Assembly: GCA_017619615.1 (NCBI GenBank)
Contig: JAFZRY010000031.1
Span: 1-32,785, forward strand
DNA length: 32,785 bases
Source: Lachnospiraceae bacterium
Lineage (GTDB): Bacteria; Bacillota; Clostridia; Lachnospirales; Lachnospiraceae
Reading direction: 5' to 3'
Positions 7,598 to 16,053 of the stretch are shown here, one piece after another (position 1 is the first letter of the stretch; every line of letters begins with the position of its first letter). The notes beneath the pieces were generated by a model that had not been told where the DNA came from, made no database searches, and saw nothing but the letters and a program-made list of their open reading frames with translations. The position numbers were made by a program, and so were the translations under genes.

Positions 7598-7640
7598 GGA
7601 GGAGGGCTGACAAAGCCCTCCTCCCTTCTTTTTTTCTTTA
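7598..7640 (+). terminator. Rho-independent terminator of the ArsB/NhaD-type gene
   Basis: Perfect 11-bp stem GGAGGAGGGCT (7598-7608)/AGCCCTCCTCC (7614-7624), loop GACAA, then CTTCTTTTTTTCTTT. Confidence 0.95.
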
Positions 7641-7665
7641 CAAAAAACCGCCCGGACGCTACAAT
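7637..7665 (+). promoter_or_regulatory. Promoter of the partner-switching operon
   Basis: TTTACA (7637-7642), 17 bp, TACAAT (7660-7665). The -35 begins within the T tract of the preceding terminator. Leader of about 35 bases to ATG 7705 with GGAAAGGAG. Confidence 0.82.
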
Positions 7666-7704
7666 AAGGTCGGCACGCGGTGCCGGCCGGGAAAGGAGTC
7701 TGCC

Positions 7705-9861
7705 ATGCCGGAAAAAAGTGTACGGGACATGACGAAATGGGAGCGGATGCGCTACTCCCTGGCGGCGCGCATCTTCCGCTCCGTGAACCTCGTTTCCTTC
7801 CTGTTCGGGCTTTTTTCCCTGGTCGTGGGAGTGGCGCTCTATGCCTACGCCCTGGTCGGCCAGTACGTGGCCGAGGGCTTCAACGTGTGCCGTTCCGCGG
7901 AGCATATGGCGGAAGTGAACCTGGAGATCGAACTGTTCGTTAAGGAAGTGTATGAGATATACTCTTCCCTGACTGAAGAGGAACGCGCGGAGATCGGCAC
8001 CGACGCCTATTATCAGCGCTATAGATCCATCACTGCCAATCGCGACTACCGCCGCCTGCTGCAGATGCTGGAGGATTTCCGGTCGAGCAGCGACCAGAAC
8101 GACGTCTACGTGGGCATCTACGACGCCGCCACCCGCCGCCTGATCTACGTGGCGGACCCGGACCAGAACGTCAAGACCGCCTGTCCCATCGGGTACTGGG
8201 AGGCCGCGGACGAGGGCGAGCCCGAAAAGTTCCTGGAGTGGAACGGCCAGAGCCGCCTCTTTCATATCTCCCACGACAAGCGGTACGGCTGGATCTGCAC
8301 CACCGGCTACCCCATCCGGGACAGCGCGGCCGGCCGCGTGATCGGCTTCTTCCTGGCGGACGTGACGCTGCGCGAAGTGTGGCAGGGCGTGAAGGGATTC
8401 CTGTGGACCTACGCGCTGGCGCTGCTGCTGGCGGGCGTACTGATGGCGGTCCTGTACACGCGTCACATGCAGAAGCGCATCGTGACGCCCATCAACCACA
8501 TCGCGGAAGCGGCCGCCTCGTACGTGCACGACAAACGGGCCGGCGCGGAGACCGGCGGCCATTTCGACAAACTGCAGATCTCCACCGGCGACGAACTGGA
8601 GAACCTGGCGCTCACGATGGCGGACATGGAGCAGGACCTGGCGGATTACGAATCCTACAGTACCCGCATCACCGCGGAAAAGCAGCGGCTCAGCACGGAA
8701 CTGAACCTGGCCGCCCGCATCCAGACCGACATGCTGCCGGGTGTGGATCCCGCCTTCCCGGGCCGCACCGACTTCGACATTTACGCCACCATGACCCCCG
8801 CCAAGGAAGTGGGCGGCGACTTCTACGACTTCTTCCTGATCGACCCGGACCATCTGGGCCTCGTGATGGCGGACGTCTCCGGCAAGGGCGTCCCGGCCGC
8901 CCTCTTCATGATGGGCTGCAAGATCCTCCTGCAGATCGAGGCCATGTCGGGCAAGAGCCCCGCGGAGCTGCTGGCTTCGGTCAACGAGCGCATCTGCGCC
9001 TCGCGCAGCGAGGAGATGTTCGTCACCGTCTGGTTCGGCATACTGGATTTAAAAACCGGCCGGCTGACCGCCGCCAACGCGGGCCATGAATATCCCGTGC
9101 TGCAGAAGCCGGGCGGTCCGTTTGAACTGATCAAAGACAGACACGGCTTCGTGATCGGCGGCCTGCCGGGCATGAAGTACAAAGAATATGAACTGCAGCT
9201 GGAACCCGGCGGCAAACTGTTCCTTTACACGGATGGCCTGCCGGAAGCGACCGACCGCGAGGATCACCTCTACGGGACGGCGCAGATGCTGGAAGCGCTG
9301 GCCCGGGCGGAAACCAGGACGCCGCGCGAGGTGCTGGAGGCGGTCACCGACGCCGTGGAAGATTTCGCGGACGGTGCGCCGCAGGCCGACGACCTGACGA
9401 TGCTCTGCCTGGAGTACCGGGGCCCGGAAGCAGGAAAGGATAAAGGCGAATCCATGAAAGAGATCACCCTGGATGCCACTATCGAAAACGTCCCCGCCGT
9501 CACGGCCTTCGCGGACGCGGAGCTGGAAGCGGCGGACTGCCCGCTGAAGACGATGACGCAGGTCGACGTGATCATCGACGAGATCTTCAGCAACATTGCC
9601 ATGTATGCGTACGCGCCGGGCAGCGGTCAGGCCACCGTCGGTGTTGCCGTCGACAGGGACACGAAGACCGTGACCCTGCGCTTTACCGACAGCGGTGCGC
9701 CTTTCGATCCGCTGGCCCGCGACGACCCGGACATCAAACTGGGCCTGGAGGAGCGCGAAGCCGGCGGCCTGGGCGTGTTCATGGTGAAAAAGATGACGGA
9801 CGAAATGTCCTACGAATACAAAGACGGCCGGAACGTGCTGACCGTGAAGAAAAAGTTTTAA
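7705..9861 (+). CDS. Membrane sensor - HAMP - PP2C (SpoIIE-type) phosphatase - RsbW-type kinase fusion
   Basis: A 718-residue signalling protein. Order: TM1 (about 28-54), an extracytoplasmic Cache-like sensor region (55-230), TM2 (232-251), HAMP (252-308), linker coiled coil, SpoIIE/RsbU PP2C phosphatase (about 355-572), HATPase of the RsbW/SpoIIAB type (584-718). Phosphatase metal motifs are intact: GGDFYD (370-375), ADVSGKG (389-394), YTDG (508-511), DD (562-563). The kinase part has its N box (DEIFSN, 625-630) and glycine motifs DSGAPFD and GGLGVFMV. Classic partner switching uses separate phosphatase and kinase proteins acting on a STAS antagonist; here both are one chain, and the STAS protein is the next gene, 15 bases downstream. 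An RBS-like AAAGG before Met584 could also give a free kinase domain. Which sigma factor or target is controlled is unknown. Confidence 0.93.
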   Translation: MPEKSVRDMTKWERMRYSLAARIFRSVNLVSFLFGLFSLVVGVALYAYALVGQYVAEGFNVCRSAEHMAEVNLEIELFVKEVYEIYSSLTEEERAEIGTDAYYQRYRSITANRDYRRLLQMLEDFRSSSDQNDVYVGIYDAATRRLIYVADPDQNVKTACPIGYWEAADEGEPEKFLEWNGQSRLFHISHDKRYGWICTTGYPIRDSAAGRVIGFFLADVTLREVWQGVKGFLWTYALALLLAGVLMAVLYTRHMQKRIVTPINHIAEAAASYVHDKRAGAETGGHFDKLQISTGDELENLALTMADMEQDLADYESYSTRITAEKQRLSTELNLAARIQTDMLPGVDPAFPGRTDFDIYATMTPAKEVGGDFYDFFLIDPDHLGLVMADVSGKGVPAALFMMGCKILLQIEAMSGKSPAELLASVNERICASRSEEMFVTVWFGILDLKTGRLTAANAGHEYPVLQKPGGPFELIKDRHGFVIGGLPGMKYKEYELQLEPGGKLFLYTDGLPEATDREDHLYGTAQMLEALARAETRTPREVLEAVTDAVEDFADGAPQADDLTMLCLEYRGPEAGKDKGESMKEITLDATIENVPAVTAFADAELEAADCPLKTMTQVDVIIDEIFSNIAMYAYAPGSGQATVGVAVDRDTKTVTLRFTDSGAPFDPLARDDPDIKLGLEEREAGGLGVFMVKKMTDEMSYEYKDGRNVLTVKKKF

Positions 9862-9876
9862 GCGGCGGAGGGAGAA

Positions 9877-11058
9877 ATGGACAAACTGAAGCACAAATTC
9901 GAGAACGGTCACCTGACCCTGTATCTGCGCGGCCACATCGATTCCGCCAACGCCGCCCGGACCGAGGAACTGGCGGACCAGGCCATCCGCGAGAACTCTC
10001 CCGCCACGCTGTCCGCGGACTGCAGCGGCCTGGAATACATCTCCAGCGCGGGCCTGCGGATCCTGCTCCGGCTGCGGAAACGCTTCCCCGGCCTGCGGCT
10101 GGACAACGTCTCCCCGGAGATCTTCGAGATCCTGGACATGACCGGGTTCACGGAGCTGATGGAGGTGCACAAGGCCTACCGTCAGATCTCCATCGAGGGC
10201 TGCGAGATCATCGGCAGCGGCGCCAACGGCAAGGTATACCGCATCGACCCGGACACCATCGTCAAGGTCTATGACGACGCAGACGCGCTGCCCGACATCA
10301 CGCGCGAGCGCGAGCTGGCCCGGAAGGCCTTCATCGCGGGCATCCCCACCGCGATTCCCTACGACGTCGTGCGCGTCGGTGATGGCTACGGCTCCGTCTT
10401 CGAACTGCTCAACGCCCGCTCCTTCGCCTCCCTGCTGGCCGAGGATCCTTCGCGCCGGCGCGAGCTGGTCGGCCTGTCCGTGGAACTGCTGAACAAGATC
10501 CACGGCACGCGCCTGGAGCCGGGCGAGCTCCCGGAAATGAAGGAAACAGTACTGGGCTGGGCGGCTTTCCTGCAACCCTACCTGCCGGAATCGGAAGGCG
10601 CGCGCCTGAAGGAGCTGGTCGAAAACGTCCCGGAGCACCCCTACATGCTGCACGGGGATTACCACTTCAAAAACGTCATGCTGCAGGACGGTGAGGTGCT
10701 GCTCATCGACATGGATACCCTGAGCATGGGACATCCGGTCTTTGAACTCGGCAACCTCTACGCCGCTTACCTGGGTTATTCCGAACTGGAGCCCGAAAAG
10801 ACGCAGGTGTTTTACGGCTTCCCGCACAAGACCGCGGAGGACCTATGGGCGGATACGCTGGACCTGTACCTGGGCGATGCGGCCCCGGCGCAGAAGCAGA
10901 AAGTCGCGGACCAGGCCATGCTGATCTCCTGCATGCGCGTCATGCGCCGCAGCATCCGCCGGCACGGGCTGAACGACCCGAAGGGGCGGGCGATGGTCTC
11001 CGCCTGCAAGCAGCACATCTCGGACCTGCTGGGGCGGCTGGACCGGCTGGATTTCTGA
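9877..11058 (+). CDS. STAS anti-sigma-antagonist domain fused to an APH-like kinase
   Basis: A 393-residue two-domain protein. Residues 1-100 are a STAS domain of the RsbV/SpoIIAA type: RGHIDSANA and YISSAGLRILL, with Ser57 aligned to the phosphorylated Ser58 of SpoIIAA. Residues about 108-390 are an aminoglycoside-phosphotransferase/choline-kinase-like domain: glycine loop GSGANGKV (113-120), Lys130 (IVKVY), catalytic HGDYHFKN (259-266, Asp261, Asn266) and metal-binding Asp278 in LLIDMD. The kinase half is unlikely to act on antibiotics; in this architecture its substrate is unknown. The gene follows the phosphatase/kinase fusion by 15 bases, in the same operon, and its STAS Ser57 is the obvious substrate of that protein (inference). 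Confidence 0.91.
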   Translation: MDKLKHKFENGHLTLYLRGHIDSANAARTEELADQAIRENSPATLSADCSGLEYISSAGLRILLRLRKRFPGLRLDNVSPEIFEILDMTGFTELMEVHKAYRQISIEGCEIIGSGANGKVYRIDPDTIVKVYDDADALPDITRERELARKAFIAGIPTAIPYDVVRVGDGYGSVFELLNARSFASLLAEDPSRRRELVGLSVELLNKIHGTRLEPGELPEMKETVLGWAAFLQPYLPESEGARLKELVENVPEHPYMLHGDYHFKNVMLQDGEVLLIDMDTLSMGHPVFELGNLYAAYLGYSELEPEKTQVFYGFPHKTAEDLWADTLDLYLGDAAPAQKQKVADQAMLISCMRVMRRSIRRHGLNDPKGRAMVSACKQHISDLLGRLDRLDF

Positions 11059-11107: not shown

Positions 11108-11139
11108 AAAAAACGAGGGACGGCTCAACACCGTCCCTC
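11108..11139 (-). terminator. Terminator of pspA (possibly bidirectional)
   Basis: Perfect 9-bp stem GAGGGACGG (11115-11123)/CCGTCCCTC (11131-11139). On the minus strand it is followed by G then six T, so it serves the pspA gene ending at 11164. On the plus strand the tail is only TCTTAT, a weak stop for the STAS-kinase operon. Confidence 0.85.
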
Positions 11140-14707: not shown

Positions 14708-15529
14708 TTATATGTCCCGCCGGATCAGCTTCGTATATTTCATCATTTCCTCAAAGCTGTCATAGGCCGGAAGATGCATGAATATCAGGCTGCCGTCCTC
14801 CATAAAAGCGATCTCATACCCGATCACCCTGCCTGAATCAGTGCCGCCGGCATGCTCGTCCCATCGGTAATAGGTTTTTCCTTCAAACCGGATCTCCTGA
14901 TAGCCTTTATCAATGAAATTGATTTTCAGAGATGCGGCGGCATCCTCGTAGAAAGACTGGCGGCAGATCAATGTTGTCAGCCTTTCCCTGTCGTAGTCGT
15001 TCAGCCCGTCTGTCAGATCGGGGGGGTCAGGACAGCGATATTGTGTCATAATATAGCCATCATCAAGTTTCCGTACATCGATCAGGCTAAACTCGGCGCC
15101 TGTCAGGTCCGGAACATAATAGTGATCCGGATCCTTTTCCGCCCTGTTTTCCTCTTGGAAGCGTTCGAATTCCTCAAAGGATCGGAACACATGAGGACCG
15201 GCGTAGGTATTGACCGGCTCGGATGATTCTTTCCCTGACCAGGGAGATTCTGTATCAAACGCCCGCCAGGTGAACAGCACGATCAGGATCACAGCCGCCG
15301 TCACCAGGATCCTGCGGGCCATGCGGCGGTTCTTCATCTTCCGGGCATTCGTGTCCTGTTCCCTGTTCTCCGGCGCTGCATCTCCCCGCAGCAGGGCTTC
15401 CATTTTTGTCCGGAATTCCGGAGAAAACTCATGCAGTTCTATATTAGCTTCTTCTTCCGCAACTTTTTTCTGCCACAGCATAGCGGAGGCGTCATGAAGC
15501 ATCTGGTCTGTGATTTTCTGCTTATTCAT
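14708..15529 (-). CDS. Putative anti-sigma factor, single-pass membrane protein
   Basis: A 273-residue protein with a cytoplasmic N-terminus of about 70 residues, one membrane helix (about 73-88) and an extracytoplasmic C-terminal domain ending IAFMEDGSLIFMHLPAYDSFEEMMKYTKLIR. The C-terminal part recalls the DUF4367-type modules of clostridial anti-sigma proteins (weak resemblance). Its start overlaps the ECF sigma gene stop by four bases (ATGA), the usual arrangement for a sigma/anti-sigma pair. No HxxxCxxC zinc motif is seen, so it is not a ZAS-type anti-sigma factor. The signal sensed is unknown. Confidence 0.72.
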   Translation of the reverse strand: MNKQKITDQMLHDASAMLWQKKVAEEEANIELHEFSPEFRTKMEALLRGDAAPENREQDTNARKMKNRRMARRILVTAAVILIVLFTWRAFDTESPWSGKESSEPVNTYAGPHVFRSFEEFERFQEENRAEKDPDHYYVPDLTGAEFSLIDVRKLDDGYIMTQYRCPDPPDLTDGLNDYDRERLTTLICRQSFYEDAAASLKINFIDKGYQEIRFEGKTYYRWDEHAGGTDSGRVIGYEIAFMEDGSLIFMHLPAYDSFEEMMKYTKLIRRDI

Positions 15530-16053
15530 TTCGCGTCTCCTTCCATCCGTTCTCTCAATGTCTTTGTCAGTCTTTTTGACATTTTCTGCACCGTTGCGGT
15601 CTTTTTATTCATCAGCCTGCCGACATCCTCAAACTTGAGGCCCAGGAAATAGTGCAGGCCCAGGATCTCCTGCTGCTCGCCGGACAGTTTTTCCATCTCT
15701 TCTCTCAACCGGACGAGAAGATCCGGATCCTCTGATTCCTCATACCCCGCTGCTTCCATGGCTTCCGCGATCTCCAGTTCCAGAACAGGTTTTCTCTTTT
15801 TCAGGATATTCCGGGCCCGGTTCTGAACGCAGACGATCAGAAAAGCTCTCCGGTTCTCTTCCGGAATGCGCCGGATCTGTTCCGGGGAATCCATCAGTTT
15901 GACGAACACGTCATGGACGGCGTCCTCCGCCTCCGCCCAGTCATTCAGGATATGCTTCGCAACGCTTGCCATCAAGCGGGCGTGTTCCGTATACAGCCGG
16001 GAAAACAGTTCCCTGTCCTCCGGGCTTTCTATGGTCATAAATACGGGCAGCAT
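15526..16053 (-). CDS. ECF-type RNA polymerase sigma factor
   Basis: A 175-residue sigma-70 family protein with only regions 2 and 4. Region 2: FSRLYTEHARLMASVAKHILNDWAEAEDAVHDVFVKLMD...RRAFLIVCVQNRARNILKKRK. Region 4: LSGEQQEILGLHYFLGLKFEDVGRLMNKKTATVQKMSKRLTKTLRERM, a helix-turn-helix. It probably directs a small envelope-stress regulon and its own operon; the putative anti-sigma gene follows with a 4-base overlap. Start ATG 16053 has AAAGGAG; Met at 16038 is a possible alternative. Confidence 0.92.
   Translation of the reverse strand: MLPVFMTIESPEDRELFSRLYTEHARLMASVAKHILNDWAEAEDAVHDVFVKLMDSPEQIRRIPEENRRAFLIVCVQNRARNILKKRKPVLELEIAEAMEAAGYEESEDPDLLVRLREEMEKLSGEQQEILGLHYFLGLKFEDVGRLMNKKTATVQKMSKRLTKTLRERMEGDAK

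Follow-up and report, generated by a model that had tools for sequence, protein, structure and literature searches.

A putative partner-switching module of a rumen Lachnospiraceae bacterium in which the STAS domain is fused to an APH-family kinase

The window, by which we mean the whole stretch of DNA analyzed here, comprises 32,785 nucleotides (positions 1-32,785, forward strand, of contig JAFZRY010000031.1) from the Lachnospiraceae bacterium assembly GCA_017619615.1. It contains two adjacent genes, hereafter gene 1 and gene 2, that an initial annotation had described as a self-contained partner-switching circuit built from domain fusions. Both open reading frames (ORFs) are present, at 7705-9861 and 9877-11058 on the + strand, and the positions and the 15-base gap given for them in that annotation are correct; together they look like a single transcription unit. 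The parts of the two genes are as follows.

7705-9861, + strand: gene 1, 718 amino acids, a sensor with two transmembrane (TM) segments, a PP2C (SpoIIE-type) phosphatase and an RsbW-type HATPase in a single chain (ORF, Pfam)
7705-8664, + strand: membrane-sensor and linker region of gene 1, with TM segments at about residues 23-56 and 228-255 (hydrophobic stretches)
8845-9417, + strand: PP2C/SpoIIE phosphatase domain, residues 381-571 (Pfam SpoIIE, 5e-50)
9475-9852, + strand: HATPase_c_2 (RsbW/SpoIIAB-type kinase) domain, residues 591-716 (Pfam, 1.5e-20)
9877-11058, + strand: gene 2, a STAS-APH fusion of 393 amino acids (ORF, Pfam)
9898-10173, + strand: STAS domain, residues 8-99 (Pfam STAS, 2.5e-13; profile match to SpoIIAA, 1auz, 6e-10)
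10045-10047, + strand: codon of Ser57, the predicted phospho-acceptor (alignment to SpoIIAA)
10204-10767, + strand: APH-type kinase domain, residues 110-297 (Pfam APH, 1.5e-18; profile match to hygromycin-B 4-O-kinase, 1.2e-6)
10264-10266, + strand: codon of Lys130, the APH kinase lysine
10651-10674, + strand: HGDYHFKN catalytic loop, residues 259-266 (motif)
10708-10710, + strand: codon of Asp278, an APH catalytic residue 3' of the loop

Gene 1 scored 170.5 bits with PF07228 (cut-off 25) and 74 bits with PF13581 (cut-off 27.4). Its PP2C motifs are intact and are kept in all 16 of the selected homologues aligned, and the N, G1 and G2 boxes of the HATPase are likewise intact and kept in all 12 aligned proteins carrying that domain. 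A relative among solved structures is 3ke6, and the NCBIfam model spIIAB matched with an E-value of 1.1e-4, far under its cut-off. The two hydrophobic stretches fit a membrane sensor, of which the roughly 170 residues in between would presumably lie outside the membrane. Whereas these parts of the architecture named by the initial annotation were borne out by Pfam and hydrophobicity, the HAMP domain that it had added went undetected, with no Pfam match at E<=0.01 in the whole protein or at E<=1 in residues 1-332. A HAMP domain in gene 1 is plausible because one is seen in 7 of the 16 aligned homologues or paralogues scanned, the window protein not being among those seven. No Cache model matched the window protein. 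A paralogous locus of the same genome (G000:C7) encodes a sensor-PP2C-HATPase protein next to a free STAS protein; other STAS, PP2C and HATPase genes exist in the genome, and the term self-contained is not supported.

In gene 2, Ser57 is aligned with the serine of the SpoIIAA motif MDSSGL, which we take to be phosphoserine 58. The STAS domain scored 49.7 with NCBIfam TIGR00377, just under the cut-off of 53.45, and the APH domain scored 67.9 bits with PF01636 (cut-off 23.2), with the Lys, HxD, Asn and Asp residues present; the sequence-matched solved structures for the APH half are hygromycin-B 4-O-kinase and ACAD11. The STAS domain with a conserved Ser57 and the APH domain with HGDxHxxN and D motifs were both as annotated, and the key residues are kept in homologues. 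Ser57 is a serine in 67/67 STAS-APH proteins, Lys130 a lysine in 80/80 APH proteins, and Asp261 and Asp278 are aspartates in all 79 that reach these positions (L152 is truncated). Other APH positions are less strict, the Gly of HGD differing in 8/80 proteins, His263 in 7/79, Asn266 in 1/79 and Glu144 in 4/80, and Lys265 being kept in only 40/79. Retention of the catalytic residues led us to reject, or at least to weaken, a reading of the APH domain as a pseudo-kinase. By Pfam, neither gene encodes a GGDEF domain. Among NCBIfam models, TIGR02172 matches the APH half best (3.2e-28, 99.1 bits); since the curated cut-off is 228.2 bits, the APH half is not a member by that rule. TIGR02172 is not known to have a described function, and the family was not named in the open-access literature searched.

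STAS-APH genes of full or nearly full length were found in 14 of 16 genomes of the genus, the window's own included (G002 and G007 lack them). Across the order, 62/392 genomes gave a profile match at E<=1e-20, some being STAS-only or APH-only, and a phylum-wide draw of 398 genomes gave five with a match at E<=1e-25, of which G452 and G734 lie outside the class. Four named relatives, 97, 84, 82 and 71% identical, are metagenome-assembled genomes of Lachnospiraceae, two of which are labelled goat omasum. The comparison set holds 80 APH genes (67 with and 13 without a STAS domain) from 53 genomes and 25 genera, several of the genomes being incomplete. Genes of relatives were called by a simple composition score, and a gene chain was defined by a common strand and a 150-base gap rule, so that chains with large negative gaps (e.g. 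L120) are unsure; domain labels come from local profiles, with Pfam run on part of them. As the profile searches scored at most four candidates per genome (order, phylum) or at most ten (HATPase), copy numbers are lower bounds. Outside all counts are six further hits of the order-wide search that were not STAS-only (G287:C173, G111:C61, G224:C2, G125:C44 and two in G420:C1) and weak APH-only matches in genomes of the genus. Tandem STAS-APH genes sharing a neighbour were counted gene by gene, and the genomes of one family (f11) carry several copies each.

A PP2C and/or HATPase domain is fused to, or lies in the same-strand chain with, 22/67 STAS-APH genes from ten genera, as against 0/13 APH genes without STAS. 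For the HATPase taken singly the figure is 20/67, compared with a rough binomial expectation of 0.5-1.6, which assumes 2 or 6 HATPase genes per 2000-gene genome and ignores shared ancestry. Linkage is well above rough chance because HATPase_c_2 domains are scarce, with at least 1 to at least 7 per genome in 358/392 genomes of the order. The arrangement seen in the window is not a constant one, contrary to the expectation that the two architectures would always co-occur: the full sensor-PP2C-HATPase gene lies directly upstream of STAS-APH in only 4/14 genomes of the genus (G000, which is the window's own, G011, G004 and G001), and any PP2C or HATPase is found in the STAS-APH chain in 8/14. Among the other arrangements, STAS-APH is preceded in G003 by free STAS and HATPase genes and in G012 by a PP2C gene that is truncated at the contig edge, the STAS-APH of G012 itself ending in a fused HATPase; G009 has a PP2C-HATPase two genes upstream. 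In G015, whose gene 2 is 82% identical, gene 1 (L057:9184-9726) has been shortened in frame, losing sensor and PP2C; its start and HATPase are retained, with the promoter-like site in front and STAS-APH next door still in place. The deletion may be an assembly error, though it is in frame (this genome is 67% complete). The chains of G008, G010, G005, G013, G006 and G014 lack PP2C and HATPase, although in G008 and G006 the contig extends no more than about 1.3 kb upstream.

Eight proteins unite STAS, APH and HATPase in a single chain, namely those of G012, of six genomes of family f8 (G203, G110, G187, G120, G210 and G217) and of G734. In the HATPase tree these eight form a supported group (100/97), four HATPases of the window type form another (100/99), and a third (99/97) comprises those of sensor-PP2C-HATPase proteins with a free STAS next door, the paralogue G000:C7 among them. 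Linked genes are spread over six or seven supported clades of the APH tree, the seventh (L120) being the one with the unsure chain. RsbW-type domains seem to have been tied to STAS-APH several times during evolution and in differing geometry, and this repeated tying is the strongest evidence for a HATPase acting on this STAS domain. With such recurrence and the single-chain fusions, chance adjacency of the genes was likewise rejected or weakened.

No sigma gene lies within the two-gene unit, as the initial annotation had noted; one of the extracytoplasmic function (ECF) type lies at 15526-16053 on the opposite strand. A sigma factor of the SigB/F/G type (TIGR02980) exceeded the curated cut-off in 0/16 genomes of the genus, 12 of which are at least 90% complete, and in 1/14 control genomes, presumably that of Bacillus subtilis. 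Below the cut-off, each genome of the genus gave a single TIGR02980 match, except that G012 gave two and that the one in G006 is a fragment; most of these lie in an ORF of about 380-540 residues, which we take for the housekeeping sigma factor. Since the SigB/F/G type did not pass in any of the 16 genomes, the output of the module is probably the APH kinase.

We consider it somewhat better than an even bet that genes 1 and 2 constitute a membrane-anchored partner-switching module that works independently of sigma factors and has an enzyme, the APH-family kinase, as its output. In such a module, the HATPase of gene 1 would bind gene 2's STAS domain and phosphorylate it at Ser57, keeping it in that state until the sensor is engaged on the outside and the PP2C domain of the same chain strips the phosphate off, perhaps through a helical-linker mechanism of phosphatase activation like that of RsbU (PMC12143880). 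With the opposing activities on one chain, their ratio could be under the sensor's direct control. Whether or not the STAS domain carries the phosphate would switch the fused APH kinase, which, by analogy only with RsbV and SiaC, would most likely be on (or free) when the STAS domain is unphosphorylated. The target of the kinase would be a small molecule or a protein, and a phosphohydrolase encoded nearby in many relatives would probably reverse or limit this step. In this model we infer the transfer and removal of phosphate, which way control runs, what the kinase acts on and what the phosphohydrolases do. The earlier suggestions that the STAS domain is a likely target of HATPase and PP2C, that it may gate the fused kinase rather than, or as well as, a sigma factor, and that no sigma partner is at hand gain comparative support from the repeated rewiring (the eight fusions, the HATPase-only gene 1 of G015), from the paralogous locus with a sensor-PP2C-HATPase gene and a free STAS, and from the lack of a SigB/F/G-type sigma factor over the cut-off in the 16 genomes.

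Phosphatase, kinase and STAS domains all have their homologues in the SpoIIE/SpoIIAA/SpoIIAB and RsbU/V/W systems, from which the present case differs in that the genus has no client-type sigma factor over the cut-off and in that the domains are joined differently. An enzyme as output is known from SiaABCD of Pseudomonas aeruginosa, in which a PP2C-like phosphatase and an opposing kinase (SiaB, named stas_STYK in PMC9239204) act on a switch protein controlling the diguanylate cyclase SiaD (PMC7647112, PMC8457831). However, SiaABCD consists of four separate genes, and SiaC, switched at Thr68, activates SiaD in trans, whereas here the phosphatase and kinase form one chain, the switch is fused to the APH kinase, and control of that kinase is our proposal. 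A STAS domain fused to its output is known from CapK/CapS, where a GHKL kinase phosphorylates a conserved serine of the STAS domain (PMC13373217); there a winged-helix repressor serves as output, the kinase has the architecture helix-turn-helix-STAS-GHKL, and the passages available mention no phosphatase. Nor is the joining of a phosphatase to an RsbW-type kinase itself new, as PP2C-STYK proteins (PMC9239204) and Rv1364c of Mycobacterium tuberculosis, in which a phosphatase is fused to an anti-sigma (HATPase) domain (PMC12143880), attest. Rv1364c differs in having a PAS input and an anti-anti-sigma domain on the same chain and no APH, whereas the STAS domain of the present system is on a second gene. 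Enzyme-output partner switching, STAS-output fusion and phosphatase-anti-sigma fusion are thus already known separately; APH domains tethered to kinases have also been described (PMC2877116), and searches of the open-access literature, judged mostly from listings, turned up no partner switching whose output is an APH kinase.

Partner switching is best known as a means of sigma-factor control, and here a genus with no detected SigB/F/G-type sigma factor has retained this machinery and rewired it around a STAS-kinase fusion. The host belongs to the rumen Lachnospiraceae, whose signalling has been little studied, and the unit is small enough for reconstitution in vitro. Such a system would directly reveal the way in which an enzyme is governed by a phosphorylated STAS domain fused to it, and would lead on to what an uncharacterised family of APH-type kinases and its partner phosphohydrolases do.

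Several observations weigh against a sigma-independent module with the APH kinase as output. Compared with three close relatives, the ratio of nonsynonymous to synonymous substitution rates (dN/dS) is 0.05-0.14 for the APH domain and 0.14-0.43 for the STAS domain, which is up to about threefold higher. No PP2C or HATPase is found in the chain of 45/67 STAS-APH genes, six of them in the genus, so that the STAS domain may there be served in trans or have another role, and a PP2C gene lies within about 0.6 kb, outside the chain rule, for 3/13 APH genes without STAS (L122, L124 and L130). The HATPases linked to STAS-APH do not form one exclusive clade, several of them lying in the poorly resolved, mixed middle of the tree; that of G001 falls outside the supported window group, and an unlinked gene 1 relative from G010 falls beside the fused group. 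As for sigma factors, TIGR02980 exceeded the cut-off in 10/34 of the other genomes with APH relatives, and sigma70/ECF-type matches (TIGR02937, a scan too general to separate sigma types) number from 6 to 31 per genome of the genus, with 22 in G000. Because of these matches and of the ECF gene in the window, a sigma factor of another type, e.g. ECF, may be the client.

The APH domain could also be the input rather than the output, sensing or modifying a metabolite and modulating the STAS domain, which would in turn act on the HATPase and on an unseen third partner such as an ECF sigma factor, a MATE-HATPase transporter or another STAS protein. Partners of this kind are on hand: the window's genome has two further STAS matches and a MATE-HATPase_c_2 protein (L166), a MATE-HATPase gene lies in the STAS-APH chain in G331 and G012, and the sigma70/ECF-type matches just given would also fit. 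Intact catalytic residues speak for an enzyme, yet do not separate input from output, and by eye no sigma cluster was recognised among the multi-lineage neighbour clusters listed, which are only partly annotated. On balance we regard this arrangement as unlikely.

A classical anti-sigma circuit, in which the HATPase sequesters a sigma factor encoded elsewhere, the STAS-APH protein is the antagonist and the APH domain a minor accessory, would agree with the likeness of the domains to SpoIIAB (by the sub-threshold spIIAB match) and SpoIIAA. We think it quite unlikely, as none of the genomes of the genus passed for a SigB/F/G-type sigma factor, which the scan did detect in one of the controls, and the APH domain is at least as strictly conserved as the STAS domain. 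That the two genes are mere neighbours, the STAS domain serving another purpose such as dimerisation or localisation, would be in line with the 45 unlinked STAS-APH genes; the 15-base gap, the shared borders, the eight single-chain fusions and the invariance of Ser57 make it improbable. Finally, an aminoglycoside-type resistance kinase under stress control, as the APH fold and the sequence-matched structures could suggest, is very improbable, given that the resistance models all scored far below their cut-offs (APH(6), 20.7 of 325 bits) and that the multiple copies per genome in family f11 and the phosphohydrolase neighbours of many relatives fit it poorly.

Phosphohydrolases were found alongside or fused to 28/67 STAS-APH genes and 8/13 APH genes without STAS. 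They also occur with 9 of the 22 STAS-APH genes linked to PP2C/HATPase, and with none in the window clade. A PHP protein lies directly downstream of STAS-APH in 12/67 cases; the one in G217 matches 3e0f, the 5'-3' exoribonuclease 7ug9 and 2yb1, the last of which acts on 3',5'-nucleotides. HD_4 or HD-CE domains are present in three STAS-APH chains, and the HD_4 protein beside the STAS-APH of G009 matches Listeria Lmo0812 (4e-25), followed by SpoT/RelA and Mesh1 structures; proteins of the Lmo0812/Mesh1 type are small alarmone hydrolases, as the record titles indicate in part. In six proteins (L122-L127, from G413, G416, G394, G423, G077 and G088) HD_4 is fused to APH in place of STAS, as seen by local profile in all six and by Pfam in all three tested. 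Thirteen STAS-APH genes (10 loci) and two APH genes have a Y_phosphatase3 protein in their chain; Pfam confirmed it in 10/10 tested, and an apparent signal peptide is present in some and not in others. This set of phosphohydrolases next to or fused with APH genes suggests that the APH product is something that cells must dephosphorylate again, possibly a nucleotide.

A wider reading, to which we give little credence as yet, would be that in Lachnospirales partner switching gates an APH-type kinase making a phosphorylated nucleotide or other messenger, which is erased by dedicated phosphohydrolases, the candidate erasers, adjoining or fused, being the HD proteins of the small-alarmone-hydrolase type, the PHP phosphoesterase, HD-CE and the tyrosine-phosphatase-family protein. 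STAS and HD_4 would then be interchangeable heads on one kinase family and, with HATPases sitting on MATE transporters too, the RsbW/STAS pair would have become a general means of sigma-free, post-translational control.

The borders and surroundings of the two genes are as follows.

7598-7624, + strand: terminator-like hairpin (11-pair stem, then a T run) 3' of the upstream transporter gene, taken as the upstream border of the unit
7637-7665, + strand: sigma-70-like promoter site, TTTACA-17-TACAAT, just 3' of the hairpin (pattern scan)
7692-7698, + strand: ribosome-binding-site-like AAAGGAG before gene 1 (read from sequence)
9867-9874, + strand: ribosome-binding-site-like GGAGGGAG before gene 2 (read from sequence)
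11115-11139, either strand: hairpin, terminator-like in either reading direction, that separates gene 2 from a convergent pspA-type gene
15526-16053, - strand: ECF-type sigma gene (Sigma70_r2, Sigma70_r4_2; Pfam)

Terminator-like sites numbered nine in the scanned stretch, against 2.8 expected, and the gene ended by the upstream hairpin encodes a CitMHS/ArsB-type transporter. The promoter-like pattern occurred once against 0.7 expected and is by pattern alone no better than chance; the same hexamers and spacing also precede gene 1 of the relative G015 at the equivalent position. Neighbour clustering gave no usable conserved neighbour within the window clade, the largest cluster, which consisted largely of shadow ORFs, having been set aside. 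A known defence system was rejected or weakened, as neither protein had a PADLOC match at E<=0.01. Adjoining the ECF sigma gene is an ORF of 273 amino acids with no Pfam match, perhaps a regulator of the sigma factor (the pair spans 14708-16053 on the - strand).

Further observations concern the relatives. In family f11 (L138, L139, L154 and L165), a protein combining copper-amine-oxidase-N and Y_phosphatase3 domains, with an apparent signal peptide, lies beside the often tandem STAS-APH genes. A cluster of condensation-domain-like proteins is common to six APH or STAS-APH loci (L059, L117, L120, L128, L135 and L136); that of L059 is a nonribosomal peptide synthetase by Pfam (Condensation, AMP-binding, PP-binding), and that of L117 has a weak Condensation match only. 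RsbW-type HATPase_c_2 domains were found at the C-terminus of MATE-family transporters in L112 (3251-5074), L061 (3249-5021), L166 (17404-18999) and L073 (3073-4836), and this architecture suggests that partner switching may also control transporters; the genes in L112 and L061 share a gene chain with STAS-APH.

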